DNA of 52,231 nt, taken from IMG/VR virus record IMGVR_UViG_3300033182_000152, positions 1 through 52,231 of that record, one strand, 5' to 3'. Each line of letters opens with the position of its first letter. Position 1 is the stretch's first letter. The position numbers and the translations under genes were made by a program. This document shows positions 8,544-42,000 of this stretch, one piece after another. The notes beneath the pieces are model-generated. The model made no database searches. It was not told the DNA's origin and saw only the letters and a list, made by a program, of their open reading frames with translations. Origin of the DNA: a virus.

Positions 8544-8605
8544 AGATAAAATGAAAAATACTGTTCTAAATGCCGTAAAAAAGGGACCGAAAAGGTGAGG
8601 TTTAA

Positions 8606-8613
8606 ATAAATAC
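8606..8613 (+). promoter_or_regulatory. Possible late promoter box for the HNH gene
   Basis: The plus strand carries overlapping TTTAAATA and ATAAATAC within 8601-8613, only about 6-12 bases upstream of the ATG at 8620. The spacing is short, so this is tentative. A GGTGAGG at 8594-8600 is too far upstream to act as a normal ribosome site. Confidence 0.3.
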
Positions 8614-8619
8614 ACTGGA

Positions 8620-19041: not shown

Positions 19042-19058
19042 AACGCATACATAATAGT

Positions 19059-20027: not shown

Positions 20028-20028
20028 T

Positions 20029-22536: not shown

Positions 22537-23446
22537 TTTTACTGTTAGTATCAATCCTACATACTTTTGTAACTTTCGTTGTGACTTTTGTTATCTTACG
22601 GAAAAACAACTAGCAGATAAAATTCGTATAAGTCCGCAAGACTTAGATAAGCGTTTAAGTGAAATGTCAGTTCCTATTACACACGTAGATTTATACGGTG
22701 GCGAAATAGGAATGTTAGACAATGATTATTTTTATAGTATAAAAGAAGTTATAAAAAAGTACTTTGGAGGTACTATAAACATAAACACTAATTTTAGTGC
22801 TAGACCAGATTTTTTTCTTGACGAAGATGTACACATCAGTGTAAGTTATGATTTTGCTGCTAGGGAGTTACACGACAAAGTTTTACAAAATATAATGTTC
22901 TTTCCAAAAGACGTTAGTGTTCTTGTATTAGCAAGTCCAAAGGTACTAGCAACAGATGTAGACTATATGATAAACACATTTAATATGATACAAAACATAA
23001 AGTGTGTTGAAGTAAAACCTTATAGTACTAACCAAGCAAATGCTCATCCTGTAACACATAAAGACTTTGAACAACATATACAAAAGTGGATAGAATCTCC
23101 TATTCCTAAAAACTTTGAATTTGTAAATGTTGAAGAATTAGAAGAAGTATTAGACGGAACACGTAATGCATTTTCAAACGATCACGTATACATTACACCT
23201 GATGCTAAGTTTGGTGTGCTAGAGTTTGACACTGATGACAATGAGTATTTTGAGAAATATGATACTTTTAGGGAGTACTTAGAGTGGGTAAATAATGAGC
23301 CCGTAAAAAACGTCAGTCCTGTATGTCACAAATGTGAGTACTATGGGAAATGTCTAACTGAACATTATCGTTACGTAACAGATTTAGACAACGGGTGTAA
23401 CGGATACAAAGGACTAATAGACTGGTATGCTAGACTGGAAGACTAG
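22529..23446 (+). CDS. Radical SAM enzyme with short C-terminal cluster domain (plus-strand copy 3)
   Basis: C14-x3-C18-x2-C21 (FCNFRCDFC) is followed by VDLYGGEIGM as the GGE motif. The C-terminus carries CHKCEYYGKC and then a Cys in DNGCNGY, i.e. C-x2-C-x5-C-x14-C, similar to the arrangement in the minus-strand paralogues (C-x2-C-x5-C-x16-C). At 305 residues it is the shortest radical SAM protein in the window. It overlaps copy 2 at its start and the small 139-aa gene at its end (20 bases). Confidence 0.85.
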   Translation: MNSFTVSINPTYFCNFRCDFCYLTEKQLADKIRISPQDLDKRLSEMSVPITHVDLYGGEIGMLDNDYFYSIKEVIKKYFGGTININTNFSARPDFFLDEDVHISVSYDFAARELHDKVLQNIMFFPKDVSVLVLASPKVLATDVDYMINTFNMIQNIKCVEVKPYSTNQANAHPVTHKDFEQHIQKWIESPIPKNFEFVNVEELEEVLDGTRNAFSNDHVYITPDAKFGVLEFDTDDNEYFEKYDTFREYLEWVNNEPVKNVSPVCHKCEYYGKCLTEHYRYVTDLDNGCNGYKGLIDWYARLED

Positions 23447-23846
23447 ACAACAACTTTTCAATTCTACTGCTGAAGAATTTACAGATGACTTAAACAAAGT
23501 TGATATTCGAACAGAAGAAGATAGTGTTACTTGGGCAGTAAAACACTTTAACGAACGTGTAGACGAATGGGTATATCCTGCTAAAAGTTATTTTGTAGCA
23601 TTATGTTATGCTACTTGGATACATCAAGATTTTGGCGATGATTTTTATGACTTACTAAACTCAGACGATTTATTAGCAGGCAACGATCCTTATTACAAAC
23701 CTTATAGTGAAGATCCTGAAACGTATAATGCTATTCTTGAGAAGATTGAATTGCCTTCTGCTTCATCTCAGACGGGAATGGTGCCCGACGTAAGGTCTTA
23801 TTATGAGGAAGAGATGATGTTTGATCAATATCCCCTACATAGTTAA
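23427..23846 (+). CDS. Small unknown protein closing the plus-strand cassette, 139 aa
   Basis: This is an acidic, mostly helical protein with aromatic residues (EWVYPAKSYFVALCYATWIH) and a Tyr/Asp/Pro-rich centre (DPYYKPYSEDPETYNAILEK). It has a single Cys and no recognisable domain. It starts inside the third radical SAM gene (20-base overlap), so translation is probably coupled. Its last 116 bases lie over the end of the convergent minus-strand radical SAM gene, so the true 3' end could be debated. It could be a partner or a target of the preceding enzymes, but nothing in it resembles the CHxS peptides. Confidence 0.6.
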   Translation: MLDWKTRQQLFNSTAEEFTDDLNKVDIRTEEDSVTWAVKHFNERVDEWVYPAKSYFVALCYATWIHQDFGDDFYDLLNSDDLLAGNDPYYKPYSEDPETYNAILEKIELPSASSQTGMVPDVRSYYEEEMMFDQYPLHS

Positions 23847-24930
23847 AAAACTCACGTATAGGGCAAACACCTGTAGGCAAATCTCTAGCACGATTTTTCC
23901 AATCCCATTGTGTATAGCAACGGAATCCGCAACGATTAAAATATTGACAACTTAGACATCCAACTTCGTCCATATATGCTTTCATTAAATTAGTATTGTC
24001 TTTTCTAATGTAGGCATGATTGAAGTCGCTTTTCTTATATCTATCCCAACGACAATTAGCAGTTGTGTTATCAGGAAATATTGTAAGTTTGTTTAAGCTC
24101 ATACAGTGCATTTGATTTGTTTCATTTTCAATTAGTTCTTTATAAGGATTTACATTTGGATAATGGTCCGCAATAAATTTCATAAATTCCAAATAAAGAC
24201 TATCAGCGGGTACCATATGATCGTATCCAGGATCTGGTATGAAATCATCAAAGAAAAGATCAAAGTTTTCGTAAAGATAGTCAAAGTATTCGTCACCGTT
24301 GAATAAAGCATTTATGCTATCTGTTGTTGCTACTAAGTTTATTGTAGAAATATAATCTTTCATACGTTCAATATTCTTAGTATACTGTCCGCCTGTTGGA
24401 CGGCCTGTAAGATCATAAGACGCAATTAGTTTACTAGGTATGCCAGCATCATTTAGATCGTCTAATAACTTACGCACATCTTCGTGATACTTGAATAAAA
24501 AGTTTGAAACCCATACTGCTTGTATTTCATGATTATACTTGTCACAGATTTTCTTTATCTCAAGCATTAGATTATAATACATAGGATATAGATTATCTTT
24601 GTCTCTATCTTGAAATAGTTCTCCTCCTACCATATTAAACTGCATAGCACTTAGCATACCTTCAGTCTTTTTACAATGTTCTTCAATAAGAGGAAGTTTG
24701 GCTAACATTTCTTCGTATGTCATGCCAACTGTAGATTTTTTATCGTGAAAACAAAAGTCACATACAATAGGACAATTTTCAAATAGTGTGACTTCTATTT
24801 CACCTATTAGAGGACGCTTACGTTCTAGTATAGTTCTTGTAAGAGCATTCTCTGCTTGTTGCTTTGGAGTATCTAACAAATGGTCATCTGTAGCATTAGG
24901 CATATTTGCCCATCTAATTATTTCTTCCAT
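23731..24930 (-). CDS. Radical SAM/SPASM enzyme (last gene of the minus-strand array)
   Basis: C53-x3-C57-x2-C60 (ENCPIVCDFCFH) and NMVGGEL give the radical SAM core. The C-terminus has a fuller SPASM domain than its upstream neighbours: a TIFPDNTTANCRW strand, then GCLSCQYFNRCGFRCYTQ and a final TGVCP, i.e. C-x2-C-x5-C-x3-C...C. It lacks the GPTD motif of the five upstream paralogues and is a separate lineage. Its start overlaps the previous gene by 13 bases. An AATAAATA about 41 bases upstream (24971-24978, inside the previous gene) could be an internal late box, but this is weak. The last 50 residues follow the last cysteine and may be a tail. Confidence 0.85.
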   Translation of the reverse strand: MEEIIRWANMPNATDDHLLDTPKQQAENALTRTILERKRPLIGEIEVTLFENCPIVCDFCFHDKKSTVGMTYEEMLAKLPLIEEHCKKTEGMLSAMQFNMVGGELFQDRDKDNLYPMYYNLMLEIKKICDKYNHEIQAVWVSNFLFKYHEDVRKLLDDLNDAGIPSKLIASYDLTGRPTGGQYTKNIERMKDYISTINLVATTDSINALFNGDEYFDYLYENFDLFFDDFIPDPGYDHMVPADSLYLEFMKFIADHYPNVNPYKELIENETNQMHCMSLNKLTIFPDNTTANCRWDRYKKSDFNHAYIRKDNTNLMKAYMDEVGCLSCQYFNRCGFRCYTQWDWKNRARDLPTGVCPIREFFNYVGDIDQTSSLPHNKTLRRAPFPSEMKQKAIQSSQE

Positions 24931-26057
24931 TTTTGTAACCCCATATTATCATATAGTTCCATTGCGTTTCTATTTATTAGGCATTCATTTTGCCCAACAA
25001 CATCTGTGATTATACTAGGTATAAGTCTTGCTGAACAGTTTTCTACATACTTACAGTTGTTACATACAAGGTTAGGTATACTTTGATACTGTTCAATTTG
25101 TTTTTGATGTTTTTTGTTTAGTATACTTTTAAGAACAGATCCATTTATATCTATTTCATAACTAGGATGATATAAAGGTGCGTTTTCGTATAAGAATGGA
25201 ACAATGTACATTCTATCATTGTTTACACTAACTACTACTTCGTTAAAATTTTTATGGCTGTTATCAGCTTGTATCCATAAGAACTCGTTTGTAAATCTTT
25301 GTTTGTCTGTGTTAATAACTGCGTCAATACTATTATTCCAACCTTGAATCATTTTTAGCATTTTATCTGGCTTGTGTACCATTGCTCTAACAAGACTAGG
25401 ACCCCATTCTACAACAGTTCCCCAACGTTCTCTCACAGTTGCTAACTTATCTAATACATCTTCATCAACTGCTTGTGTAATATTACATAGCAAACTAACT
25501 TCGTATTCAATTGAACTACGTTCCATTACTTCTAAACGTTTTTCAATAAGACTATGTACATTTGAATTATCTAGCATATGAAGATCAACTGCTATTTGTA
25601 CATCAAATGGGCGTTCTCTCAAGTAACTATTTTCAACGTGTTTAATTACTTGTTCAACACGTTCATCACCAATAAAAAAGTCTACTGAACAGTTGTGTTG
25701 TAGTCCGCCGTCATCTGGTAAAGCATCAACTATTTTACGGAAGCGAGGATCATCGAGTACTTGTATAATGTTGCCACTTGAAAAGAAATCGGTAGGTCCA
25801 ACAATAATGTCGTCTAATTCATATTGTTCAGTAAGTTCATCAACTAATTGTGCTGCTAAATCAAGGCCGATACCTGTGCCGTAATTTTTTCTACGTTTTA
25901 CAAAGCAACCTGAACAATTATACGCACAGCCTTCAAGTATTTCAAGCATTAGTTGTATTTTTATTTTGTTTTGATCAGCAAGATCTACAAAAGTATCTGG
26001 GTTAGCAAATCCTTTAGTATTATTCTTTGTATAGTACTGCCAATCTTTTTTTAACAT
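24918..26057 (-). CDS. GPTD-family radical SAM paralogue 5
   Basis: C44-x3-C48-x2-C51 lies in LEGCAYNCSGCFVKRR, the same local pattern as the other four members of this array. VGPTDFFSSGNI follows the first beta-alpha units, where most radical SAM proteins carry GGEP. The C-terminal cysteine set is CNNCKYVENC...C with spacing C-x2-C-x5-C-x17-C, one residue longer than in its sisters. It is 379 residues. It overlaps its upstream neighbour by seven bases and its downstream neighbour by 13. The substrate is inferred, not shown: the CHxS-tailed proteins at the head of the same operon are the obvious candidates. Confidence 0.85.
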   Translation of the reverse strand: MLKKDWQYYTKNNTKGFANPDTFVDLADQNKIKIQLMLEILEGCAYNCSGCFVKRRKNYGTGIGLDLAAQLVDELTEQYELDDIIVGPTDFFSSGNIIQVLDDPRFRKIVDALPDDGGLQHNCSVDFFIGDERVEQVIKHVENSYLRERPFDVQIAVDLHMLDNSNVHSLIEKRLEVMERSSIEYEVSLLCNITQAVDEDVLDKLATVRERWGTVVEWGPSLVRAMVHKPDKMLKMIQGWNNSIDAVINTDKQRFTNEFLWIQADNSHKNFNEVVVSVNNDRMYIVPFLYENAPLYHPSYEIDINGSVLKSILNKKHQKQIEQYQSIPNLVCNNCKYVENCSARLIPSIITDVVGQNECLINRNAMELYDNMGLQKWKK

Positions 26058-27145
26058 TTATTTGCCTTGTACTCATTTAATACTTCTAATGGATAAACAC
26101 ATTCAGTAAATCCGTAATGTTCCATATAACTTAGTACGTGTTTATTCAAACATATTTCTCTTCGATCACAAGTTTCACAGTGTAGTGTTTTAGGCGAATA
26201 AGAAAGTTGATCAATATACAACTCTGTTTTTATATTAGTCCAACTTTGTAAATCTAAAGGATTTTTTATCCTAAATTTTTCATCACGTATAAGTGCTACT
26301 TCGTATACAAAAGGAGTTGAATAAAATTCGCCGCCACTATAAGTATAGTTTAGTTCAAGCGGTCCGCCTTGATCTTTGTCAGCAATGGTCATTGCTAGAT
26401 ATTCTTGATTTTCTTCAGTATATGTATCTTCAATCATATCAACCCAAGACATAATAATATCGTTATGTATTTTTCCTTTACCGTAACGTTGGTAACTTGG
26501 TATAGGCTCAACAATAGTGTTATATTCTTCTTTTACTACACGGCTAATTTCTGCTAAATTACCAAATTTAGCAAAATCTTGGTCCATATTAAAAATAATA
26601 TAAAAGTTTAAAGGGTCAGTAAATCGATTTAATACATCGTGTATACGTGCTAAGTGTTGTTTTCTATATTCTGAATCTAATGCTTGATTTACATCAATAA
26701 CAACTTGAAAGTCGTATAAAAAACCTTCACGTTTAGGTATTTTATTAAAGCCTTCAATAATAGGATCAATAACACTATCGTCATTTAACAGTGTACTAAC
26801 CATTCCTACAGTGGTACAATTACTAACTATTTCTTTAAAGTTATCAAACTCTAAAATTTCTTGAATATTTAAGTTTCCAAATACATCAGTAGGTCCAACA
26901 GTTAGTGTACTAAACCGTATATTGTTATCATTAAACATACGTTGAGCATCAAGTATCTTTTTAAAGTCTTCGTTAGATGCTTTTTGTCGTCTACGATTGA
27001 CAAAACACCCACCGCAGTTATGTATACAACCATCGAGTACATCGGCAGTCATATTAACTTTTAGTCCTGAAGCATTACCAACACTAATATTATAATCTTC
27101 GTGGCCTCTTGTTGCTTCCCAATAATTGTCACTTACGATTGGCAT
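26051..27145 (-). CDS. GPTD-family radical SAM paralogue 4
   Basis: C40-x3-C44-x2-C47 is in LDGCIHNCGGCFVNRRR. VGPTDVFGNLNI is the family motif. CETCDRREIC with a last Cys in FTECVYP gives the shared C-x2-C-x5-C-x16-C ending. It is 364 residues and ends in a terminal cysteine (KANKC). Its start lies 17 bases inside the preceding gene, and MPIV at the N-terminus parallels MPII in the preceding paralogue. The central region (FDNFKEIVSNCTTVGMVSTL) is the usual partial TIM-barrel. I cannot tell which of the five paralogues are active; all keep the cluster-binding cysteines. Confidence 0.85.
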   Translation of the reverse strand: MPIVSDNYWEATRGHEDYNISVGNASGLKVNMTADVLDGCIHNCGGCFVNRRRQKASNEDFKKILDAQRMFNDNNIRFSTLTVGPTDVFGNLNIQEILEFDNFKEIVSNCTTVGMVSTLLNDDSVIDPIIEGFNKIPKREGFLYDFQVVIDVNQALDSEYRKQHLARIHDVLNRFTDPLNFYIIFNMDQDFAKFGNLAEISRVVKEEYNTIVEPIPSYQRYGKGKIHNDIIMSWVDMIEDTYTEENQEYLAMTIADKDQGGPLELNYTYSGGEFYSTPFVYEVALIRDEKFRIKNPLDLQSWTNIKTELYIDQLSYSPKTLHCETCDRREICLNKHVLSYMEHYGFTECVYPLEVLNEYKANKC

Positions 27146-28307
27146 GATAAATTTTCTTTATTTCCTCTAATCTTTCGTCACCATCTTCGGTTACTAGAAA
27201 CTTTTTACGATAACCTTGCTTGTCTGCTTCAACCGTATAACCTTCCCAGTCATACATTTCCGCAGCACTTTTATTATAATTGTGAATATTTCGCAACATA
27301 TTCTCTTTTGGTGCTATACAAGTACTTACTCCTAAGTAGTCACGTAGTAAAATTATTTTTCTGTTGTAACAACTAAAGAACATATCACAATTTTCACATT
27401 CTGTACCTTTAGCACGTTCCATTTGTGTTAATGTTTTGTAGTATGCCTCATCTAAATCTTCTACTAAAAACTGATCATCATACAATGCCATATTTTCATA
27501 CAAGAAAGGACTTAGATACCACTTACCTTTTTTAAAGTTTAGAACAGTATAGTTGTGTCCTGCGTGTGTATGATCTACCATGATGTTGTTTAAGTGAGTG
27601 TCTTCAGGTAAATTCTCAAAAAACTCATTAAATTGTCCTAGTGTGTTTAATATAATGTTTGGTTTATGGCTACGACTAACACTAGGAATAAAATCTATAG
27701 TTGTTTTAAATTGTTTTACTACAAAATCGTGTATTTCTTCGTAATCTAAGTCGTAGTTACGTATGTTTACAATAAACGTATAGGTACATTCGTGCTTTAA
27801 GTGTGCATCAATGTAATTTATACAAGTTCTAAGTTGTTGTATATACAATAAATCTTTATAGCGAGTTGGATCAGTAGCAATGCCTACTTCGATCTCGGTA
27901 TCAGTGTTCACATTATCATGTAAGAAGTTGACCCAACGCTCAATGTACCCTAAATCTTGCTCTAAAAATGTAGTAGTAAACGCAAGTATAGGGGAATTTT
28001 CATTTATCATTGCCAGTAAGTCGTTATCACTCATTACATCATAAAAGTTTTCACTTGACAAGCAGTCAGTAGGTCCTATTAGTATCTCATCTACCAGTAT
28101 TCCTTTGTCAGTTATGCGTTTTACAAACTCACGGCACTCTTTTAAGTGGTTGTCTTTAGGAGCGTTGCCTCTACGATGAACAAAACAACCAGGGCAAGCG
28201 TGTACACACCCGTCAAGAACGTCTAATTGTATTTTTACAGCACTAACCGGCTTGGTTTGCGTTTCGGTTGTTAGTTCATAGTACAAATTATTCTTAATTA
28301 TTGGCAT
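27129..28307 (-). CDS. GPTD-family radical SAM paralogue 3, with C-terminal tail
   Basis: C34-x3-C38-x2-C41 is in LDGCVHACPGCFVHRR. ILIGPTDCLSSENF carries the family GPTD motif with an extra Cys. CENCDMFFSC with a last Cys in VSTCIAP repeats the C-x2-C-x5-C-x16-C ending. It is 392 residues, longer than its sisters because about 60 charged residues follow the final cysteine (EMYDWEGYTVEADKQGYRKK and beyond). This extension might be a docking segment. It overlaps the genes on both sides (14 and 17 bases). Confidence 0.85.
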   Translation of the reverse strand: MPIIKNNLYYELTTETQTKPVSAVKIQLDVLDGCVHACPGCFVHRRGNAPKDNHLKECREFVKRITDKGILVDEILIGPTDCLSSENFYDVMSDNDLLAMINENSPILAFTTTFLEQDLGYIERWVNFLHDNVNTDTEIEVGIATDPTRYKDLLYIQQLRTCINYIDAHLKHECTYTFIVNIRNYDLDYEEIHDFVVKQFKTTIDFIPSVSRSHKPNIILNTLGQFNEFFENLPEDTHLNNIMVDHTHAGHNYTVLNFKKGKWYLSPFLYENMALYDDQFLVEDLDEAYYKTLTQMERAKGTECENCDMFFSCYNRKIILLRDYLGVSTCIAPKENMLRNIHNYNKSAAEMYDWEGYTVEADKQGYRKKFLVTEDGDERLEEIKKIYHANRK

Positions 28308-29322
28308 TTATGTACTCCTTAGGTAAAACACACTCGGTAATACTTCTATTTTTCATATAGTACAACACATTACGCTCTGAACAACTCATTAAATGTGGGC
28401 AATTTGAACATTCTACAGTTTTTTCAGCATAATTGAGGTTAGCAGTTAAGAAATCTTGAGTATTCATGTCACTAACTTCAAACTCTGGTGTACGCTGAAG
28501 TATAGCATCGTACAAAAACGGATTCATGTACAGTTTACCATTGTAAAAACTGTAATTTGTACACCCATAACCATTAAACTTAGCATCAAACATAGTGTAT
28601 AAGTTTCTATACTCTGGTTTGATGTTTTGTTTACGTAATTCTTCAACAAACATAGGCAAATATTTACTAACTTTACCTCCACTGTTACGGTCGGTTAGAA
28701 AACTAGGTAATATTACTACCGGTGCGTTAAAATCTTGCTTTACTTGGTCGCACAACTCGTTATAACTAATACGATCAAATATACCTGGATAGTAATTTAC
28801 TCTAAACTGTACACTGCCTTCTGTAAATAGTTCTAGTCTACGACAAAAGTCTTCAATATCACCATTTAGATACTTGTCTATATCTAATACAATTTTAAAG
28901 TCCATATCGTTTATGCGATCTACACCTTCATAAAGACTCCAAATTGCGTCATGCTTTAATTGTATCTCATCTAACGGCTGTAACAGTGTACTTGTATATG
29001 CTATACCACTAGTTTCGTATAATTTTTTAGTAGCAGGGTGTTTTATTATTTCCCAAAAGTTTTTAGCATCGAAAATGTCTGTTGGGCCTATTACAATTTC
29101 GTCAGGATATAATTTACTTTGCTGTAAAATATTATGTAAAGTTTCTAATTGATCAACATTAGTTAAATTTTTACGTGGAATAAAGCAACCAGGGCATTGT
29201 TGATCACAACCATGTAATATGTCCGCATGAACTTCGACACGTAAAAAGTCCTGATTTATTGGACTTACGCCTTCAATGTATGTGTAGTATCCTGCTGGAG
29301 TATCGTTGAGTTTAACTAGCAT
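28294..29322 (-). CDS. GPTD-family radical SAM paralogue 2
   Basis: C39-x3-C43-x2-C46 is in LHGCDQQCPGCFIPRK. IVIGPTDIFDAKNF is the GPTD motif. CSNCPHLMSC and a last Cys in ITECVLP give C305-x2-C308-x5-C314-x16-C331. It is 342 residues, among the most compact members. The first residues before the cluster (HADI, strand) match those of the other paralogues. It overlaps the flanking genes by 11 and 14 bases. Members 1 and 2 have identical spacing from N-terminus to the cluster (39, 43, 46). Confidence 0.85.
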   Translation of the reverse strand: MLVKLNDTPAGYYTYIEGVSPINQDFLRVEVHADILHGCDQQCPGCFIPRKNLTNVDQLETLHNILQQSKLYPDEIVIGPTDIFDAKNFWEIIKHPATKKLYETSGIAYTSTLLQPLDEIQLKHDAIWSLYEGVDRINDMDFKIVLDIDKYLNGDIEDFCRRLELFTEGSVQFRVNYYPGIFDRISYNELCDQVKQDFNAPVVILPSFLTDRNSGGKVSKYLPMFVEELRKQNIKPEYRNLYTMFDAKFNGYGCTNYSFYNGKLYMNPFLYDAILQRTPEFEVSDMNTQDFLTANLNYAEKTVECSNCPHLMSCSERNVLYYMKNRSITECVLPKEYINANN

Positions 29323-30493
29323 TGACGATTTTCAAGGCATCGTCGTTCCATTGCTCGTTGCTATCAATATATGGATTGAATAGATCAAGTACATCTAGAG
29401 GCATCAAACACTCATGCATATTCATAGCGTCTTGTGCTTGGAAAATTAATCTACTAGCACACGCAACAGAGTATTTACAGTCAGCACAATCCTTAACAGT
29501 GGAAGACTTTGCCAAGCCTTTTGCTATTAGTTGATCCCTCTTCGCTAAGATTTCTTCAAAACTTAAACCTGTTACCTCTAATTCATCGTGTTGTGTAAAG
29601 AATGCTTGTTCGTGTAACATAACATTTAAGAATACACGAGGTGAATCAATACCAGGAGTAATAGTTAGCCCTATGAAGTTCATTGAGTTACAATATAAGT
29701 TAGCCATACTCATTGTAACTTTATCAAAGTTGTCTTGACCAACAACTTCGCTTAAAAACTTATTCCACGAAACAAGATTGCGTCTTTGCATAAGAGCGTT
29801 TGGTGCTCTCGAAAACGCAGGATTCATTTCTAAAATAGTTTCGTATTCATCTACTACTTTATCAAGTAATTTATTGTAAGTTTCTTTATTCAAACGTTTT
29901 TGCATTACATTACTTGCTTGTAATGTCCAACTCCAGTCAACTTCTTTTGGAGTTTCTTTATCAAAAAATTCTAATTTTGCTTTTATGTCGTTGAAATAAT
30001 CTTCATCATTTATAATACGATCAATGTCACCAATAGGCATAATAAATTCAATGATCATTTCATCTCTATACTTTGATGGATCATCTAGTATAGCAAACAC
30101 ATCACGCAGTTTTTCCATAGACACATCGTCAATTTTACTCGGAGTAGCGATACGTGCTTTAGTATGCTCGCGCATAATATTTTGAATAATAGGATTATTT
30201 AGAACATTTTCAGTATTTGCTGCGGAAAATAAATCAGTTGGGCCAATAACAAATTCACGTAAGTTAAGTCCTGTACGTTTTACGCCGTCTGCTAGTTCTT
30301 GAGCAGTTTCTAACATACTGTTCATTGTAGCAACATCTTGGTTTTTGTTTACAAAACACCCTACACAACCATGATTACAACCTGTGAGGCCTTCAAAGTT
30401 AATCAACACATCAAATTTTTGTGCTTTACTCGGTGGCAAACTTTCAGGTCCACTGTACCTCATTTGTTTGCAATATGATTGTTGCATTGTCAT
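29312..30493 (-). CDS. GPTD-family radical SAM paralogue 1 (first of the array)
   Basis: C39-x3-C43-x2-C46 is in LTGCNHGCVGCFVNKN, with FVIGPTDLF at 82-90. The C-terminal signature is C336-x2-C339-x5-C345-x16-C362, followed by about 30 residues. It is 393 residues. The ATG overlaps the TGA of the preceding unknown gene (ATGA), so translation is coupled to it. Its middle region differs most from the other four, and a Cys-rich N-terminus (SYCKQM) precedes the core. Confidence 0.85.
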   Translation of the reverse strand: MTMQQSYCKQMRYSGPESLPPSKAQKFDVLINFEGLTGCNHGCVGCFVNKNQDVATMNSMLETAQELADGVKRTGLNLREFVIGPTDLFSAANTENVLNNPIIQNIMREHTKARIATPSKIDDVSMEKLRDVFAILDDPSKYRDEMIIEFIMPIGDIDRIINDEDYFNDIKAKLEFFDKETPKEVDWSWTLQASNVMQKRLNKETYNKLLDKVVDEYETILEMNPAFSRAPNALMQRRNLVSWNKFLSEVVGQDNFDKVTMSMANLYCNSMNFIGLTITPGIDSPRVFLNVMLHEQAFFTQHDELEVTGLSFEEILAKRDQLIAKGLAKSSTVKDCADCKYSVACASRLIFQAQDAMNMHECLMPLDVLDLFNPYIDSNEQWNDDALKIVNAS

Positions 30494-31212
30494 TCTGTTA
30501 CTTCCTCAGTATCTTCGTTTTCAAAAAGTTCTAAAATATTGCCAGCAACACCATAACGTAACAACGTGTTATATAAATCGTTTCCTTGATACTTACTAGC
30601 ATCGTTGAATATACGTGTATTCAATTGTTTAGTAGGCCAAGGTCCTAACTTATTTCCTAACAAGTAAAGAATGTCAGGTGCATATGTTGCAATATATACA
30701 ATATTTAGTCCAACACTTGTATCAACATCAGTATGTTCTAAGTCGGTTAGGTAATCGTCGTATTTTTTGTTATACTTGTTTGCTTGTTCTAAGCAAAATA
30801 AAGGTATATGACTTAATTTATCAATCAAATCGTTAATAAGCTCGCCGTGTTCTTTTAGGTAAGCATCAATCTCTTCGTCAGTCCATAACGTGTTTAGTGC
30901 GTGATCAACATTATTATATTCTTGTTGATATTTGCGTTTAACTATTAACGCAATTATTCTTGACAACATAGGACAATCTACTAAAAAGTTAGTTTGAATG
31001 TACTCGTTTACAAGATCAGCGTCCATTGATTCGAACTGAACTTTAAAATTAGTATTACTAATGTATACTAAAATATGTTTTACACTAAGAACTTCTTTAC
31101 TTTTTTCGTAATTTACACGTAATGTAAAATCGTCCTGGTCTGCTTTTATTTTGTAGATCTCAGCAAGATCTACAGGGTTTAACGGAAGTGTATAACTATT
31201 TTCACTTATCAT
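30490..31212 (-). CDS. Unknown protein of the radical SAM operon, 240 aa
   Basis: I do not recognise this family. The N-terminal 80 residues contain alternating strands (FTLRVNYEKSKEVLSVKHIL, VYISNTNFKVQF) that could form a small beta fold. The remainder is helical and acidic (HGELINDLIDKLSHIPLFCL), ending in ELFENEDTEEVTE. There are no cluster-binding cysteine sets or nucleotide-binding motifs. It lies between the second unknown protein (two-base gap, GGAG ribosome site) and the first radical SAM gene (ATGA overlap). A role in target recognition, like the RRE/PqqD or HxsD partners of other systems, is a guess from position. A tail or head accessory protein is the alternative. Confidence 0.7.
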   Translation of the reverse strand: MISENSYTLPLNPVDLAEIYKIKADQDDFTLRVNYEKSKEVLSVKHILVYISNTNFKVQFESMDADLVNEYIQTNFLVDCPMLSRIIALIVKRKYQQEYNNVDHALNTLWTDEEIDAYLKEHGELINDLIDKLSHIPLFCLEQANKYNKKYDDYLTDLEHTDVDTSVGLNIVYIATYAPDILYLLGNKLGPWPTKQLNTRIFNDASKYQGNDLYNTLLRYGVAGNILELFENEDTEEVTE

Positions 31213-31214
31213 GT

Positions 31215-32273
31215 TTACTCCGATACTAGTGGCGCAACATTGAATAACAAATAAGGAATTCTACTTTTACGTTTGTAGAAGAATTCTACTTCTTTCCATA
31301 CATTTGATAATTCTTTGTTTGTTGCGAAGTTAAATCCGCCCTCTGCTACTTTTATAATTACTGGAATTGTTCTCGCAAACTCGTTGTATACATCTTCGTA
31401 TTCCCAATCTTTGTGATTGTTGATAATAGACATAAGTTCTGCGTTATTGCCCACTTCATCCCAGAAATCTCTTAATACATATAATGCTTGCATTCTGTTT
31501 TTATTTTGGAATGTATCTTTTACAAACTGTACTTTGTCCCAATTATTGTTATCCTGTGAATGCATCCAATCAATAATGTTATTAATAACACTAATATAAC
31601 CAATTTTAGTTTGAAGCATACTAATAACTTCAAAAATCATCTTTTCACTGTGTACAGTAAACTTTTCACGTAGATGATTTTGTGTTACAGCATTAATTTC
31701 AGCGTATGTTTCGTCTTGGTTGTATCTATCATTAATGAAGAATAGAATATCATAACCCCAATGCTTACTATTTGGAGTTCCCATATCATGCCATTCATTC
31801 TTAGCAAATACTGACTCTACACGAGCATCAACATCATCTAATGTAAAATGCGTATATGTAGCATATTCAATATCACGTTTAAAAACTAATTTTAAGAAAT
31901 CTTTTACAATTTGTTTTACATCACCGCTTGTTGTAGTTTTTAACAATGAAGCAATATACTTTGCATACACGTCGATAATATCAAACGCATCGTCAAACAA
32001 TAAAAATTCTTTATCGTTATTAGACAAATATTCCCAAGTATTAATTTCATTTGTGTTAGTAAATGTAATCATATCTGGATTAGCATTTGGATAATCTGTA
32101 AGTAGTGTATCAATATAAGACTGTTGTACTTGCGAGTGTCCTTCTGGCGCTACAAGAACTAATGATCTTGATTGATCTCCGCTCCACGGACTTTCTGCTA
32201 AAGCAGTTACCATAGAGCTAGATTTCCCTAAATATTTTTTGTTGTTTATATAATAAAAACTTTCACCTATCAT
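31215..32273 (-). CDS. Unknown protein of the radical SAM operon, about 352 aa
   Basis: The start was placed at the ATG at 32273 because it overlaps the TGA of the preceding CHxS gene (ATGA). A further ATG at 32297 would add eight residues inside that gene. The protein is mixed alpha/beta: an N-terminal segment with GKSS, a strand-like SLVLVAP and FLLFDDAFDII, then long helices (FEVISMLQTKIGYISVINN, NRMQALYVLRDFWDEVG). GKSS and FLLFDD superficially recall Walker motifs, but the upstream Gly of a P-loop is missing, so I do not call an NTPase. It sits between the presumed peptides and the radical SAM array, suggesting a chaperone, partner or carrier role. Confidence 0.7.
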   Translation of the reverse strand: MIGESFYYINNKKYLGKSSSMVTALAESPWSGDQSRSLVLVAPEGHSQVQQSYIDTLLTDYPNANPDMITFTNTNEINTWEYLSNNDKEFLLFDDAFDIIDVYAKYIASLLKTTTSGDVKQIVKDFLKLVFKRDIEYATYTHFTLDDVDARVESVFAKNEWHDMGTPNSKHWGYDILFFINDRYNQDETYAEINAVTQNHLREKFTVHSEKMIFEVISMLQTKIGYISVINNIIDWMHSQDNNNWDKVQFVKDTFQNKNRMQALYVLRDFWDEVGNNAELMSIINNHKDWEYEDVYNEFARTIPVIIKVAEGGFNFATNKELSNVWKEVEFFYKRKSRIPYLLFNVAPLVSE

Positions 32274-32653
32274 CTTCTTCCCCTTGATCCATGGCAACTA
32301 TAATGGCAACTTGAATGGCAAATACGCCAATCAAACGAACTGTTTGTTAATCTTCCTTCAATAGCATTTACAGTACGTGATATACAGTTTGTTGCGAAGT
32401 TTTGTACATCAGTAGCTCTTGCTATAATATTATCACCTACGTTGTTTGGTAAATCTCCTGTACTATAAACATTACTAGGAGCGTTTACATATTCATAACG
32501 TCTATTACCGTATGCTCTTGCTTGCCCCCATCCACCAGAGTTAGCATAATAACATTGCGCATTAAAGTTAATAGTTTTATCAAAAGTACGTATTTTAGTA
32601 TAAGCACTGTTAATGTAGCGAGATTCTAATGAACCGTGACTTAAACCTGCCAT
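32270..32653 (-). CDS. CHxS-repeat small protein B (candidate radical SAM target / fibre tip), 127 aa
   Basis: The protein ends in CHSSCHYSCHGSRGRR: three tandem CHxS tetrapeptides (C112, C116, C120, each followed by His) and a basic RGRR end. A body of about 110 residues precedes it with FDKTINFNAQ, AYGNRRYEYVNA and an amphipathic helix (DNIIARATDVQNFATNCIS, IEGRLT). It is a paralogue of the 124-aa protein upstream, overlapping it by one base. Short proteins with a conserved body and repetitive Cys/His/Ser C-terminus are the pattern of His-Xaa-Ser and CXXX-repeat radical SAM target peptides (Haft and Basu description). Here it is joined to a fibre gene upstream and radical SAM genes downstream. 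It might instead be a metal-binding adhesin. No modification is proven. Confidence 0.7.
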   Translation of the reverse strand: MAGLSHGSLESRYINSAYTKIRTFDKTINFNAQCYYANSGGWGQARAYGNRRYEYVNAPSNVYSTGDLPNNVGDNIIARATDVQNFATNCISRTVNAIEGRLTNSSFDWRICHSSCHYSCHGSRGRR

Positions 32654-33027
32654 TATCTTCTCCCTCTACTACCGTGACAACTATAGTGACAACTTGCGTG
32701 ACAAATTCTAAAATCAAAATACTGGTCAGTTAGTCGTCCTTCAATTAGATCACACGTTCTTTGAATAGCGTTTAATGCTTGATCAACTAAGTGTGTTGCG
32801 TCAATTAGTGTTGTGTTTGGGTAAACTTGGCTGTTATAGACCTGGTTACTAGCATTTACATACTCGTAACGTCTATTACCATAAGCAGTGCCTTGGTTAT
32901 ATCCGCCATAGTTTTGATTTAAGTAAACTGTTGCTGAAACATTTACTGTTTTATCAAAACCTCTTAACTGTGCTCCAGCATTACCACGAAAGTAATCTCT
33001 AGCCGAAGCTCGAGTCATATTACCCAT
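32653..33027 (-). CDS. CHxS-repeat small protein A (candidate radical SAM target / fibre tip), 124 aa
   Basis: The C-terminus is CHASCHYSCHGSRGRR (C109/H110, C113/H114, C117/H118), 15 of 16 residues identical to the paralogue downstream. The body holds FDKTVNVSATVY, a Gly/Asn/Tyr-rich segment, AYGNRRYEYVNA and a helix (LVDQALNAIQRTCDLIEGRL) that could trimerise. The ATG lies three bases after the stop of the 4132-aa fibre gene behind GAGGTGAAGG, so the protein should be made together with the fibre. In T4 the gene after a tail-fibre gene often encodes a tip adhesin or chaperone (gp38), so a tip role is plausible. The RiPP-like tail and downstream radical SAM genes suggest post-translational modification. 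Both statements are inference. Confidence 0.72.
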   Translation of the reverse strand: MGNMTRASARDYFRGNAGAQLRGFDKTVNVSATVYLNQNYGGYNQGTAYGNRRYEYVNASNQVYNSQVYPNTTLIDATHLVDQALNAIQRTCDLIEGRLTDQYFDFRICHASCHYSCHGSRGRR

Positions 33028-33030
33028 TGT

Positions 33031-36000
33031 TTACACCTTCACCTCTACAGTACCTTCTCCATCACAATCACTAATTGCTGTACCAATTAGTAATGTGTAT
33101 TCTTCAATAGTACTTAGTGTATCTACAGCACGACCTTTACCGTCCTGATTAGCAATAATGTATTGTCCTTTCTTAGCAGTTCCGTTAATCAAACAAGGAA
33201 CACGACCTTTTAGTGCCACAAATGGCCACATAGGATCATCTCTGTTCTCGTCTGTTTGGTTCATCATTAAGCCTGGTAATGTTGAAACAACGCCTGCTAG
33301 TTTCATACCTGGCTCGTAACGTGTAACTTCTTTGTCGCCGCCAATAGCAAGAACTGTACCATGCTCATAGACTGTATCTGCTTCATATTTCTCTGCCAAG
33401 TCAGCCCAGTTAGCACTTGCCGCTGTACCTTGGTAAACACCTGAGTTATCAACGTATGATACGTCTGTACCATCTCGTCTAAACTGACAAACTCTGTTAG
33501 AGTTAGCACCCGCCGCAATGTAGAATCTGTTAGAGTGATATTCAATTTTACCAACGTCATTACCTGGGTTACCAGTCCATGATTCGTTTGAGTTTTCGTA
33601 GAATCTAATACCTGGTGATACGCCATCATTGTTGTATGAACGTAGTGCCCAGTTGCCATCTTCGTTTAAGAAGCCTTGCGAATCATTGTCAGCATATAGT
33701 CTACCGTAAATAGTGTTTGAACTGTTACATAGTGTAACCTCACATGATCCACTGCTAGCAGATCTCATATGCATTCTGTTACTTGCTTGTGGATAAATGT
33801 GCCAACCTGCGTATGAACCTGCTTGCCAGTAAATACCTGAATTACTTTCAATACGTAACCAGTTGTTCAAGTACAATTCACCGTTTACATCAACACCATT
33901 AGATCTTGTATTAATCTTGTTACTGTTGTTGTAACGCATTTCTGTTGAGCCACCGTGTACTGCGTAGAATAACCAGTGGTTGTTTACATCGTTGTAAATA
34001 CCAGTACTACTTCCTCCGTCATGCATAAACACAGCACGACCGTCAATACTAAAGCCTTCCCAGTTACCTGCGCCACTACCGTTAATTTGAATTGAACCAT
34101 AGTTACCACTTGGTTGTGACAAGTAACGTGTAGTTTGTCCACCTACAGCAACAACATTGCCTACACACAAGTTACCGTTTGTAGTAAGTGACATAGCACC
34201 TGCTGCTACACCATCGTCTGTATCACGCCATTTCCAGCCACGATCACTTTCGTTGTTCATTGTAAATGTCATGGCCCAGTCATTCAACCAACCATGTGTT
34301 TGTCCTGACGCCATACCAATAGTATAAGAACTACTGCCGTATACTCTTAGTTTATCATAATTACTACTACTGTAACCGTCAATAAACCCAATGTTGTAAC
34401 GTGTACTGTTGCTAAATCTATCTGGGAATGTACCAGCATTAATATTACTTGCGTTACGATAGAATGAACCTTCTTGACCGTCTAACAAGTCAGCGTCTAG
34501 TCCGCTGCTACTACCATCGTTACCAGCGTGCCATACTCTATGTGCTACAGCACCACGTGACCAACCACCCATTGCTAAGTCGTTTGTAGTACCATCTAAA
34601 CCAAAGTGTACAGCGTAGTCACCACCAATGTGGAATGTCATAAACGCATCGTATGAGTTAGCACCGTTGCCTTGGTAACATTGTAGTGTATTAACTTCGC
34701 CAGTATTTTGAATAGTTGTTGCCGGGCCACTAATCTTAAATACACCACCACTAAACGCAGCACCCGTATCAACACGTAGGAAACTTGAAGCGTGTAAGCC
34801 ATCAAGTAAGTCTGCGTTCAATCCTGAACCTTCGCCGTCATTTGAAGCAGTCCAAATAGCACCACCGTTAATGTAACCAGTTGTAGCATTGAAACTTCCG
34901 TTTACATCTAAGTTATAAGTACCGCCTGGATCTTTGTTAATACCAACTTTACCGTCGCCTCGTACACTGAAACAAATATTACCATTTGTTTGTGATACGT
35001 CATTGTTAACACGTAAGAATGTTGTAGCAGCACTGTTATTAGAGTTACTATCAAGTCTAATGTTTACATTATGGTATGAGTTAATACTTAAATCGTCGCT
35101 TGCGATCCAACTTTCTGAACGTGAACTAATACCGTGATTTGTATAGCCACCTAATGAACCATAGTTGCCATCCCAGTCAAAACTAATAGCGTGTACTTTA
35201 GCAATTTGACCTGTTGTACCACCTGACGAAATAAATCTTCTATTACTGTCAATAGTTTCAACACCGTTTACGTTGTAACTGTTACCATTTACAGCACCCG
35301 TTAGTGATAAGTCTGCTGCTGATAACTGTCCGCCAACATACAAGTTTTTACTAAAACTGCCGCCACCGTCTACACGTAAAGCACCAGTTGTAGTACTTGT
35401 TGCTTGGTCAGCGGAGTTAACGTGTAAGTATCCTGAAGCAGCACCGATATCAATTGCTGTTGCTGCGCCACCAATGTTAAGTGTAGTAACAGTATCATTT
35501 AGTAGATCAAATGCTGCTTGGTTAGTACCTAAACTTGATGCTTGTGTAATAACATTTTTGTTTAATCTAATAGCATCGCCTGAGAAACTAGCAACTAGTT
35601 CTTGGTTTTGAATACCACTGCCTGAACCAATTGAATTTGAACCATAAATTTCAACAGCAGCACCTGCGCCAGAACCTGTACCACTTCCTGGTTTAAGTTC
35701 TAATACAGAACCATTAATATTAAACTGTCCTGTAATAGGTCCTTTAACACCTAACGTAGCAATTTGCTGTGAGTTTTGTGAACTACGTCCTAAGTATACA
35801 CTTGGAGTATGATCTGTTACGCCGCCAATTTCAACTCTATCAACTTGTGTTCTTAACGCACTACCAGAAGTTCCTGCTGAACTTGTTCTAACATAAACTC
35901 TACCTGGATCACCGTTACCAGTTGAGCCACCGCCTGTTATTGTTAAGTCAGGACCGTTTTTGTTTGTACCTAATCCGTTTGGTGCTTTAATTGTAGCATT

Positions 36001-39000
36001 TGCTGGTTGCGTTTCTGTGTCGTCGCCGCCAACTACAAGTGTTGTATTTCTAACACGCATTGTACCTGATTTATCAGCACCAATAGTAACACTAGTTGCT
36101 GCTCTACCAATACTTAATGCTGTAACAGTATTGTCATATACTGTAGCACTTGTTTTAGTAGTTTTAATATCGCCGCCGTCAACGTTTAAGTCACCGTCAA
36201 TTTGTAAGTTACCTAAACTATCAAGTACCATACGCTCTTGGAGGAAGCCTGCTGCCATAGTACCAAACTTAAGGCTAAAGTCTTCTGAACCAAATGTTAC
36301 GTCTGTAGCAACAGCATCAATAACAGCACCAGTTTCTCTGTTGTTATTAGCAGTTTCAACTTGGAACTGCATACCAACACCAATGCCTACTGCCGGAGTG
36401 TTAGTAACTTCGTGACGTATTTCTAGTGGTCTTGCTACACCTGTGTTGTTAGTATCTTCAGTAAACGGAGCAACGTCATTTGACCATGCTGGGTTTCCTA
36501 ATTGGTCAACAACCATAACAGCACCCTGTGAGCCAATTGGTAATCTGTTAAGTGTAGTAGGTGATGTAGCATAAATCATGTCACCGGCAATATACTGGTC
36601 AAGTGCTGTACCACCTCTGTTTACTGGAACAGGGTTTAGTAAGTTACCTGGTTCTAAGAAGTATTGACTATCAAGTCCGTCTAGTGTACCTGCGTCAAGT
36701 ACGCCTGCTTTTAATTCAACTTCACCTGCGTTAACATTAAACTGTGCTTTACTAAATGCCGCAACACCTAAGTTAGTGAAACTTTGATTACCTAGTGTAT
36801 CATCAGTTCTATCAATATCAAATTGTGTGTTTGCGTAGTAATAGTTTTGGCCGCCACTTGTGTAGAAGTCACCAGTAATGTTTAGTGGTGAGTTAAGTGC
36901 TATACGTGCTGTACGTACAGCGTAATCCCAACTACTATCACCTTTTAAGTATGTCTTATCGTTAGCAGATCCAACTGCTGCTAATCTTGAAGTACTAATT
37001 ACACCTGATACAATGTTACTCGCATCTACGTTAGCACTACCGGTTAGTGCCCAGTTGCTATCTAACTTACTTGAAGTGTTTACAGAATCATAAATTGTAA
37101 TATTTTGTTTTACAAAGTCTGCTGAGCCACTACCTGTTTGAACAAAGTTAATATTATTCTGTGTTAAACCGTTTACACTTTCAACAGCGTCTTGCTGTAC
37201 TTCATGAACAGTAAATCCGTTAGCAGTAACACTACCAACAAAGTAGTAGTTTCCACTTACCATTCCTGTTGGCGGGTTAGTACTTACAAAACGGAATGCT
37301 TGACCAGTTGTGTAACCATGTGACGGAGCATAAATTCTGTCTTTACGTGTGTCAACGTGTTTAATAATTAATGCGTGTGTACCAGTTGAACTAGTTGTAA
37401 ACGATACTTTAGTACCTGGATCTAAATCATATCTATTGTAAAGTTCGATAGTATTAGCGTCTAGTACTTTTACAAAATAACTTTCACCTTGTAATAAACC
37501 ACCAATTGGAGTATTTGGTGAACTTGCGTAGTTTACAATATCGCCATCGTCAAATATGTGTGCGTTAATAGTAATTCTTGAATTCGCATAATCAACATTA
37601 CCACCGTTTGGAACAGTGTCAGCGTTAAATGCTGTTAATGTAGTATTACCAATTGCTACACTTGTAATAGTAGCATTAGAATCTTCAATGTAGTCATTGT
37701 TAGTTGTTGATACAGTAAACTTACCTTCAATTAGGTCAATATACAATCTGTTTTCTACGCCGTTTGCTGCGATTTGGAAAGCAGTAGTTGAACTTCCGCC
37801 TAAATTACTTGTTGCTGCTGTAAGGATATCACCTGTTTGATAACCTGTACCACCTCGTGTAAGGTCAACGTTTGATACAATACCGTTAGTAACAGTAATA
37901 TCAGCAATAGCACCTGTACCAACACCTGTGTTAGCAACCATTGGAACATTTTCGTATGTTTGTGTACCTGATACTGGTACATAACCTTGACCGCCACTAA
38001 TATTACCATTGTCTACTGCTATAAGTACACCTTCTGTTTGACTTGTAATAGTACCCTGTGTTTTAGCACCAGCAGCAGTAATTGTAACTCCGTTTGTAAA
38101 CGAAGCACCACTTGGACTATATTTTAAGTACTCACTAGTAGAGTCAGAAACTAGTGTATATTGTACTTCTCTTGTTTCTGTACTACCTGTGTTAGTAATA
38201 TAAGTTGTTGTATTACCGCCATTTACAACTAGTGTATTAGCACTAATATTGTTACTAAATGTACCTGTAATGTTTGTAAGGTAAACTGTTGCTGCTCCGC
38301 CGTTATCTTCATCAACAATAGCAGTTGCGCCAGTGTTTGCTTCGACAACAACATCATCAGCACTTAATGTAGTAGGAGCACTTAATGTAAAGAATATTCT
38401 TGGATATTTCTCAGACGCAATGTCACCTTGAAGTGGTTGTTGTGCCGGAATATCATCTGTTAAATCAAGTCTTCCATATTTTAGATCTGAGTTAAACAAA
38501 CTAAAGTTACGTGTAGCAGGAATAATATCTGCGTTCAACAAGCCTTGTGCGTTCATCTGTGGAACAGCGCCGCCTAGTGAGTTAGTAGATACGTTCTTGT
38601 CTAAGAAGTCGCCTAGTCTGTTCGCCATGAAACTACGTTGTGCTAACTGTGTAGTCAAACGTGTATCTGTGGCACCACCCGGTTCGTTGTCACCTAATCC
38701 TGGGTCAGTTGAAATCGCTTCAATAACAACATCCGAAACTGCTAGTTTCAATGCTGAAAGTTCACCAACTGTAACTGTGTTTTTAAATGTAATGTTACCA
38801 GTTCTGTTTTCAGCAACAATGAAGTCACCAACTTTAAAGTCACCTAGTTCGTTAGTACCTGATGAGTAAACTCGTCCTGGTAAGTCACTGAACTGTTCGT
38901 ATTCCTCTCTTGTAATACCGCCGTTCTGTGGTAGAGCGTTATAGTCTGTACCTGAACCTGCGTATTCCCAAGTGTGAGCAGATGAGTTAACAATACTTGG

Positions 39001-42000
39001 TCTGTGTAAACGAACGTATGTTCCTGGTAAGTTGCCGGTGTTAGTTAACACACCACCAACAATAGTCGGATCAATAGTAAACTCTGCTGTAAACAAGTCT
39101 GTTCTTGAAGTAAAGCCTGTTACAAGAATATTTGTTTGCGCAACTGCCGAACTATCTGAGTCAATTACAGATGTAGCATCAAAGAAGATTCTTGTCAACT
39201 GTCCGCTGTTTTCTGCCTTTTCTACAGATACTGTTAGTGTTCTAGTTGCTTGATCATATGTGTAAACATACGCTTTGTTTCTATAGATACCAGTTGTTGC
39301 TTCAATAAGGTCACCTGGATTAAATGTATAACTACCAGGAGCAAGTGTTAGAACTTGATACTTATTGTGTGTTTGTTTGTTGCCGTCTGCGTCAAGAATT
39401 AATTCGTCAATAAAGAATTCTTCTGTCTGTGTTTCAAGAATGTGATCGCCCGTTGATGCTTCTAACAAGTCAGCAACAAATTCTCTTGAATCGTCTTGGA
39501 ACAGTCTAATAATATCATTAGTTAGTACTTCAACGTAGTACAAACCTTGGTCAGCAAGACCGTTAATTTCAACGTTGCCGTTTCTACGATATGTTACAGC
39601 GTCACCAGTTACAAGTCCGTGACCTACAATAGTAATTGTATTAGCCTCTAGATCCAGTGTACCCGAACTGTCATCAACACTAGCAGCATTAAACGTTAAG
39701 ATATTTGGAATAGTCTTAAAGTTGTTAGTAATATCGTTTGCCAAGTTGTTTTCTTCGTCATCGTCATAGAAGCGTAAGATAAACTGGTTAACTGGAGTAC
39801 GTTTAGTACCAACTGTAATAAGTTTTTGCTGTGACGCTTGGTTGCCTACTTCAGCAATAACACCACGGTCAAATACAAACGAGTTAGCAGAATAACCTGA
39901 CGAACGTAATGCGTACAAACCAAAGTTAGTAGCAGAGTTAGTAACAGAAAGGTAAGCGCCTGACTGACACCAACAACCATTGCCTAGGAAAATTTGGAAA
40001 CATGATACAATCTGTGCGTAAGCATCGTTAGTTAGACGCCAACCAGTACCACCAAATGATAGCATGGTGTATGCGTTAGCAACCATTGACTTACCTTGTT
40101 CAGGTGTTTCACCAAATACTGGATTCTCAGCCTCAATAGCAAAACGTGGAATGTTTGGTGTAATAACTTTTGAACCGTCTACTAAACATCCACTTAGTCC
40201 TAAGAACGAAATAATTGATACGTTCTGTACGTATGGCGATTGTGTAATAATTGGTTTTTCACGTAAGCCTACATAGCCTGTACGATCAACACCTGTGTCA
40301 AATGGATCGTCAAATGCTGTACAGAATCTACCAGTGAAACTTGGTACGTTAAACGCATCAAGACCATCTTTAAATGTAATACCTAACAAGTAACAACCAT
40401 TACGTACACGGAAAATATCTTGGTTAGCATTTAACGGACGAACAATAGTTGTACGCAAGTTATCACCAACAATAGACACATAGTCTGGAATAATAACTGG
40501 GTTGTCTTCTTTATATTCACCAGTAGCAACCATAATAGTTGTATAGTTAATATTAAACGCACCTTCAACTTCAGTTGGAATGTTTGGCGATTGTGGACCG
40601 TTTTCAATAATATCAATGATAATATCAAATTCTGCTTCAACTATGCCTAATGTGCCGGGTTCAACTATTTTAGTTACATCTGTAACTTGTCCTGCCGTGT
40701 TTTGATATAAACGCTTGTTTTCAATATTTTGTAAAACATTATTAACTAGTTTTTGGAAGTATCTGTTAGCAAGAACAGTTTGGAATTCTTCACCTGGAAT
40801 AACAATCGTATTACCAATGTAGTAAGACTTACCTGCTTCAATAGCACGTTCATTACCGCCGTATACTAAGTCGTATTGAATAGCGTTAATAAACAATCCA
40901 ACGTCTCTACGACAAAAATCTACATCGTAAGTAAAGTTTGTAAAGTTTGTGTTAATGTAAGAAATAACTTCTGCTTGGATAAACGATCTGTTTAGAGCAA
41001 GCAAATCAGCAGCATTAATTACATTTTGATTTGAACTTGGAACAATACCTGAAGCACTAACAGTTACAGCAGTGCTAACACCATCGATAATAATATCTTC
41101 AAGTATTGTACCTAATTGGTCGATTTTATCAATAGCAGCCTGACTTCCTGGATTTAATGGATCAGTTACCTGTGAACTATTAATTTGGAATGATGTTACA
41201 TCATAGTTTTCTACTACTTGTTTAGCAAGTCTAACGCCGTGCATTATGCCGTCAATAGTTTGTACCAGTTGACGCTGTAGTGCTACAGAACTACTTTGTT
41301 TAAAGTAAGAAATTGCTGCTGCTGTAGTATTAGATGTTCCGCCCCAAGTTAAATCAAACGCAAATGCGTCTAATATGTAACCAATATCACGTTGACAAAG
41401 TGCTTGGTTATAACCGTTAGTACCAAATGTAATCCAACTAGCATCTACATAAGCAACAGTTTCGTCTTGGATAAACGTTTTGTTAGAAGTAATAAGTGCG
41501 CCAGCATTAAGAATGTCTTGGTCTGTAGTTAAAGCACCGTTTGCTGTAATATTTGTAAAGTCACTTACGCCATCATCAACAACATCAACAATAACATCCA
41601 TTAACGCACCAAGTGTTTGAGCACTTGTAGTATCGCCCGGATTTACACCGTCAAATACTTGTGTTTCAGCTGAATAAGTTGTACTAATTGTTACGTTACG
41701 AACAACATCTTGTACTAGGCTCTTTAAGTGATTTAGAGCAGCAATAGTTTCTGTTTTTTGTCCGCTTACAACAATAGCAGCCGCTTGTTTATAGTATGCC
41801 GCACCTGCTACAATAGTATTAGTATTACCGCCGTGTGTTAAGTCGTATTGTAAAGCATCAAGAATTAATCCTGTATCTCTACGACAAGAAGTTTGATCAT
41901 ATGTTAAAGCTGGATACTGATTGTTAATATATCCGATAACCTCTTCAGTAATAAACAATCTGTTACTTTCTATAAGTGTTTCAGAGTTTAATGCGCCAGT

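Follow-up and report, generated by a model that had tools for sequence, protein, structure and literature searches.

Two small proteins encoded directly behind a giant tail-fibre gene in the viral record IMGVR_UViG_3300033182_000152 of IMG/VR (positions 1 to 52,231; this whole stretch of 52,231 nucleotides is called the window) end in three tandem Cys-His-x-Ser tetrapeptides followed by RGRR. Proteins with this ending, (CHxS)3-RGRR, here named CHxS proteins, occur in many large phages of unrelated groups together with a cassette of radical S-adenosylmethionine (SAM) genes. It is established that the tail is invariant, that the bodies are unrelated and that tail and enzyme genes co-occur almost one to one; the gene order and the linkage to fibre genes are established too. 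We consider it likely that the CHxS protein belongs to the virion, associated with the fibre and probably serving as a tip adhesin, and that its C-terminal tail is modified by a conserved enzyme set of the kind that matures ribosomally synthesized and post-translationally modified peptides (RiPPs).

The CHxS tail and its carriers

The original prediction, made from the letters of the window, had described proteins of 124 and 127 aa (P0002 and P0001) with three CHxS units and a terminal RGRR, and both open reading frames (ORFs) and their tails are indeed present (Table 1). The C terminus of P0002 is RICHASCHYSCHGSRGRR and that of P0001 is RICHSSCHYSCHGSRGRR; in each the tail conforms exactly to CHxSCHYSCHGSRGRR and runs directly to the stop codon. 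The paralogues share 51% identity, and 12 of the 17 codons of their tails (stop included) differ, yet only one residue does. Stop and start codons overlap from P0002 to P0001 and from P0001 to the gene at 31215 (TAATG, ATGATA), and the minus-strand genes are tightly packed from the latter through rD. The prediction had also set the pair between the fibre gene and a single radical SAM array: the giant fibre gene does lie 3 nt upstream, but the nine radical SAM-type genes are divided between two strands, with rD and five rE on the minus strand (23731-30493) and rA, rB and rC on the plus strand (20474-23446).

The tail is widespread among viruses. Among the matches listed in scans of IMG/VR (up to 80 loci a scan), a protein-profile search placed CHxS homologues at no fewer than 57 loci, and a degenerate DNA pattern without stop codon detected at least 119 viral stretches, with 115 of 119 matches located exactly at the C terminus of an ORF. 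The bodies of the 180 distinct CHxS proteins collected span 100-300 aa, are nearly free of Cys and form at least nine groups that share no detectable similarity with one another. By contrast with these bodies, no C, H or R of the tail varies in any of the 180 proteins, and the Ser residues of the three repeats are kept, in order, in 180, 171 and 179 of them. Just ahead of the tail, unrelated bodies repeatedly show an Arg at position -11 together with hydrophobic residues in alternation. The 148 distinct tail DNAs show zero diversity at codon positions 1 and 2 of Cys and His and a diversity near 0.5 at third positions, from which it follows that selection acts on the protein sequence. A chance origin of the tail was rejected, since shuffling the residues of all window ORFs yielded 0 matches in 2000 replicates against the 2 observed.

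CHxS proteins are encoded by the isolates FLC6, FLC8 and SURPRISE13 (Burkholderia), Atu_ph07 (Agrobacterium; gp170, with the C-terminal tryptic peptide NMWYQSANVTASIGVDFCHSSCHASCHNSR), Phosso (Sinorhizobium) and pPa_SNUABM_DT01 (Pseudomonas), and the phages that host the cassette, namely marine T4-like, Ralstonia/Burkholderia jumbo, Pseudomonas jumbo and Atu_ph07-like phages, are unrelated. A general bacterial family was considered and rejected: a search for the pattern in 84,980 species genomes yielded 13 matches, of which 11 are true CHxS proteins on contigs that look phage-derived (a radical SAM gene accompanies 10 of the 11 in the sequence examined) and two are chance matches without an ORF (L185, L193). 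The cassette is absent from ordinary bacterial chromosomes. A tblastn search with the short tail against phages and plasmids gave no match and was not used; it missed the known tail-bearing phages too, and its blank result probably reflects a limit of sensitivity. A sequence search of the PDB found no relative of the CHxS protein.

Two further loci carry unusual forms of the protein. A tail variant with altered spacing, CHYSCFTSSCHFSRGRR, is present at 11010-11699 in L333/L335 and would be useful for defining enzyme recognition, and a single phage (L108, 11753-13464) encodes an adjacent pair of CHxS proteins with unrelated bodies.

Linkage of the tail to radical SAM genes

Linkage was assessed in 63 CHxS loci with flanks of up to 10 kb, in which radical SAM families were defined by blastp clusters because iterated profile searches merged the subfamilies. 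All 63 loci contain a radical SAM gene and 51 contain three or more, with family D (rD) present in 56 loci, A in 52, C in 44, B in 43 and E in 21. rA directly precedes the CHxS gene in most relatives, and in 43 of the 63 loci the distance between rA and the start of the CHxS gene is between -22 and +39 nt. An rB orthologue (E<=1e-159) is found on 42 of 43 long CHxS contigs; the sole exception, L074/L057, stops 1.4 kb beyond the CHxS gene and keeps the cupin gene, rA and u240. The expectation that homologues would adjoin radical SAM genes was thus borne out.

The reverse search gives a similar picture. Among 75 distinct contigs with rA or rB, 55 carry the exact tail and 2 a variant tail, and the remaining 18, as read from contig coordinates, end before or near the place where the CHxS gene is expected. 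In contigs of the rE-array type that place is 9.2-10.6 kb downstream of rB, and for the L210 type it is about 7 kb upstream; L219 is borderline. In a phage collection, rA and rB match the same seven records (Atu_ph07 twice), all from tail-bearing phages. No whole contig with the tail or rA-rD alone was found, truncation or a variant tail excepted. A wide occurrence of the same tail in phages that lack radical SAM genes would have spoken against the prediction; no such homologues were encountered. The contigs are metagenomic and partly related, so that these counts are not independent events. A stronger point than the counts, as judged by sequence comparison, is the occurrence of the cassette in clearly different phage groups, in which the rB orthologues of unrelated phages remain 56-64% identical to that of the window; plasmid homologues of rB show only about 25% identity.

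Cys-His repeats are natural metal ligands, and phage spikes with metal-capped tips (His/Cys-capped) are well established. The three CH pairs could accordingly form an unmodified tip that binds Zn, Fe or a cluster, while the radical SAM enzymes target something else. Although the repeats and the nearly Cys-free bodies suit metal binding, such a tip would leave unexplained why the tail and four orthologous radical SAM families co-occur almost perfectly, why these genes overlap the CHxS gene, and why the Ser and the C-terminal RxRR are conserved, and we regard it as unlikely.

Radical SAM genes or arrays of marine T4-like and jumbo phages have been reported without a substrate (PMC5332604, PMC7029224, PMC8066314, PMC11898562, PMC5468394). 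The FLC6 and SURPRISE13 genes of those reports (gp70, 71, 76, 79-82) belong to the CHxS cassette, and RP12/RP31 and marine phages have comparable radical SAM genes, likened here from their published description. In marine T4-like phages, one study read the arrays as genes of Fe-S metabolism (PMC5332604) and another as cassettes that vary within the host recognition cluster (PMC7029224). On these published readings, the enzymes would be metabolic or Fe-S auxiliary genes in a host-recognition island, and their link to CHxS would result from hitch-hiking in a mobile block. However, the same gene set is kept in unrelated phages despite different gene orders, and whole contigs do not show one component alone, apart from the truncations and variant tails mentioned above, which makes this explanation very improbable. 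The published accounts of these arrays name neither a target peptide nor a link to fibres nor a role in maturation, and a search of open papers (preprints and subscription journals lay outside it) turned up no report of a phage-encoded radical SAM target, in agreement with the remark in the original prediction that no such phage system is known to have been described.

The enzyme set and known maturation systems

Membership of the radical SAM superfamily, judged by the CxxxCxxC motif and by superfamily profiles, is indicated by Pfam for rB and rC, by phrog_1802 for rA and rD (E 6e-53 for rA), and for rE by its motif and weak profile matches only. rA scores 30 bits against the cut-off of 27 for the SPASM domain (TIGR04085), and the best among its weak relatives are maturases of peptides or proteins; rB reaches 20 bits, under the same cut-off, and extra Cys residues are invariant in rA, rB and rD. 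rE contains a GCxxxCxGC motif and four further invariant Cys, with marginal profile matches. In sequence searches of the PDB, rA and rB matched general radical SAM enzymes only, and rE had no relative. In L018 (6024-7100) and in many marine phages, rA has a CHSDCHQL motif near its C terminus that echoes the Cys-His spacing of the target; its residues probably serve as ligands of an auxiliary cluster. The remaining cassette genes of the window are listed in Table 1. For u360, the start is the ATG at 32270, as in homologues, and the TTG at 32297 chosen by the ORF caller is probably wrong.

Table 1. Coordinates of the CHxS genes, the fibre gene and the cassette genes in the window
Feature	Position	Strand	Remarks
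Tail fibre, 4132 aa	33031-45429	-	Directly upstream of P0002 (3-nt gap)
CHxS protein 1 (P0002, 124 aa)	32653-33027	-	Tail CHASCHYSCHGSRGRR encoded at 32656-32703
CHxS protein 2 (P0001, 127 aa)	32270-32653	-	Tail CHSSCHYSCHGSRGRR encoded at 32273-32320; paralogue of P0002
u360, cassette protein	31215-32270	-	By profile in 12 loci; possible divergent counterparts elsewhere
u240, core cassette protein	30490-31212	-	In 61/63 loci
rE radical SAM-type enzyme	29312-30493	-	Motif GCx3CxGCFV
rE radical SAM-type enzyme	28294-29322	-	
rE radical SAM-type enzyme	27129-28307	-	Weak Pfam Radical_SAM match, below cut-off
rE radical SAM-type enzyme	26051-27145	-	
rE radical SAM-type enzyme	24918-26057	-	
rD radical SAM enzyme, core family	23731-24930	-	phrog_1802, E 2.5e-23; in 56/63 loci
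u139, small conserved cassette protein	23427-23846	+	phrog_20737; in 37/63 loci
rC radical SAM enzyme	22529-23446	+	Pfam Radical_SAM 29.7 vs cut-off 29.5
rB radical SAM enzyme	21502-22536	+	Pfam Radical_SAM 33.4 vs cut-off 29.5
rA radical SAM/SPASM enzyme	20474-21502	+	SPASM above cut-off
Cupin-like cassette protein	20011-20487	+	In 49/63 loci
2-oxoglutarate (2OG)-Fe(II) oxygenase	19500-20027	+	PF13759 above cut-off; family in 43/63 loci

Two known radical SAM systems resemble the CHxS cassette. His-Xaa-Ser systems (HxsABCD) likewise combine a C-terminal tandem repeat with HxS in the target and more than one radical SAM enzyme, but the CHxS repeat has a period of 4 with an added Cys, ends in RGRR, is confined to phages and is linked to fibres. 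Systems of the CXXX-repeat or ranthipeptide type share a Cys every four target residues and a radical SAM SPASM maturase, whereas the CHxS target is a long, fibre-linked phage protein. The scores of the maturases fall far below the curated cut-offs of both families: rA obtains 28.6 bits against 370 for HxsB, rB 22.1 against 267.9 for HxsC, and for the CXXX maturase (TIGR04115) rA and the rD of Atu_ph07 obtain 22.6 and 18.2 bits against 350. In the test for an HxsA-type target, P0001, P0002 and three other CHxS proteins matched no NCBIfam model at E<=1, and a further CHxS protein gave a weak lantibiotic match only. The proposal that the tails are RiPP-like targets gains support from linkage, while the likeness to the two named families, also put forward in the prediction, amounts to resemblance. 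By sequence, the CHxS system would work like radical SAM maturation of the RiPP type as a member of no named family.

Additional genes are found in or near some cassettes. In 14 loci of the sample, L216 (6605-8554) among them, a B12-binding radical SAM protein is encoded near the CHxS cassette; it scores 95 bits with the KedN5 C-methyltransferase model, below its cut-off. The cassette of L333 includes a tryptophan-halogenase-like gene (19416-20768; PF04820, E 5e-76), near which, on the other strand, a protein with a PLOD-type glycosyltransferase domain is encoded (7084-9012; compare collagen lysine glycosylation). Two dihydrofolate reductase genes lie within the cassette of L001 (19842-21057; FLC8, SURPRISE13), between rD and rB.

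Fibre linkage and a proposed maturation pathway

The 34 distinct genes found directly upstream of the cassette include 30 with a match to phrog_22593, 25 to phrog_19602 (tail fiber protein) and 9 with a Peptidase_G2 domain. The C-terminal region of the window fibre belongs to this phrog_19602/22593, Peptidase_G2-like family, to which it was assigned via the homologous fibres of L002-L016. As would be expected of an adhesin gene, the CHxS gene of the window follows the fibre gene directly (3 nt), and a fibre gene is upstream in at least 30 of the 34 cases; in most relatives that are not T4-like, the cupin gene and rA separate the two. Small genes right behind a large fibre gene are likewise typical of T4-type adhesins (gp38 and glycine-rich relatives), from which CHxS proteins differ by their Cys/His/Ser tail and by having no glycine-rich receptor domain. 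A further point of likeness is seen in one phage group: in L060, L061 and L063, a 308-aa glycine-rich adhesin-like protein is encoded just upstream of the CHxS gene, and over ~46 residues its N terminus matches those of several CHxS proteins with 76-78% identity, which suggests a common attachment module with exchangeable ends.

The Atu_ph07 virion protein clusters obtained by electrospray ionization tandem mass spectrometry (ESI-MS/MS) include 'CDS 170-215' (PMC6102473), of which the CHxS protein gp170 is the first member, at the edge. In the related phage AP-J-162, ORFs 49-63 form a structural cluster (PMC11242549), the last member of which would be the CHxS gene, as suggested by synteny with Phosso. 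Gene order, the N-terminal module common to the glycine-rich protein and the position of gp170 suggest a location of the CHxS protein at the tail tip.

This setting also bears on the idea of a phage-encoded RiPP, in which the tail would be cleaved and released as a small bioactive molecule, with the body as its leader. An invariant short C-terminal core behind a variable, leader-like body, and tailoring genes of the RiPP type, including the halogenase and the B12 radical SAM gene, would fit such a product, which is, however, quite unlikely given 100-300-aa bodies that share their N terminus with a glycine-rich adhesin-like protein, genes placed directly behind tail fibres, and the failure to recognise a peptidase or exporter among the cassette families scanned. 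A metal-binding tip, a released peptide and metabolic genes each fit the linkage data less well than tail modification.

Modification of the CHxS tail may proceed as follows. CHxS proteins would be made directly after the fibre, with a variable body and the invariant substrate tail (CHxS)3-RGRR, and the tail would be acted on by rA-rD, several rE, the cupin protein, often 2OG-Fe(II) oxygenases, and u240, a phage-only protein that may present the substrate. The SPASM-type enzymes most likely bind either the body or the strand that precedes the tail, and then process the Cys-His-x-Ser units stepwise, probably introducing cross-links or other oxidative modifications at Cys, His or Ser before assembly. 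Candidate bonds include thioether, His-Cys and C-C cross-links, or a modification followed by metal binding. On the fibre, the modified protein might then provide a rigid or metal-binding, protease-resistant tip that contacts the receptor. Some cassettes also have a tryptophan halogenase gene or one that resembles B12 radical SAM methyltransferases, which is counted in favour of this explanation.

That the enzymes act on the tail, which kind of bond they make and where on the virion the protein sits are what we infer, and several points weigh against the explanation. The status of gp170 as a detected virion protein is read from a cluster boundary. rE falls under the Pfam cut-offs, and its match to rD reaches an hhalign probability of 80 only. 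The model of the CHxS body (helix, long β-hairpin, helix and unordered tail; pLDDT 72, pTM 0.50) is of moderate confidence and an uninformative Foldseek search returned no fold match for it, so that adhesin or trimer status lacks structural backing. The confident model of u240 (pLDDT 88) has no fold match in the PDB, and significant matches in a viral library are to phage proteins only, including those of RSF1 and Atu_ph07.

We lean slightly towards regarding the system as a new class of virion maturation, in which non-proteinogenic cross-links of the fibre tip are made by radical SAM enzymes through a mobile, phage-only set (at least four such enzymes) common to unrelated large myophages, to which methylation, hydroxylation or halogenation is at times added. 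For the puzzling radical SAM arrays of marine and jumbo phages, the invariant tail of a fibre-linked protein offers a concrete candidate substrate. If the explanation is correct, RiPP-style radical chemistry is used in the building of virus particles, probably at the point of receptor contact; this would explain the iron-sulphur gene load of ocean phages and would supply both a sequence signature for phages with this system and a source of new maturases.

Some further features of the window were observed. A ~50-aa repeat (F..DEVVAF...Y..F.YD...C.RD.G.I.DA..YDL) recurs many times in the fibre (33031-45429). A NUDIX-domain gene (18984-19499; PF00293, E 5e-15) stands just ahead of the 2OG oxygenase and radical SAM genes, and a plus-strand ORF at 8620-8955, which by its sequence resembles a small HNH-type endonuclease, adjoins a tail sheath-like gene.
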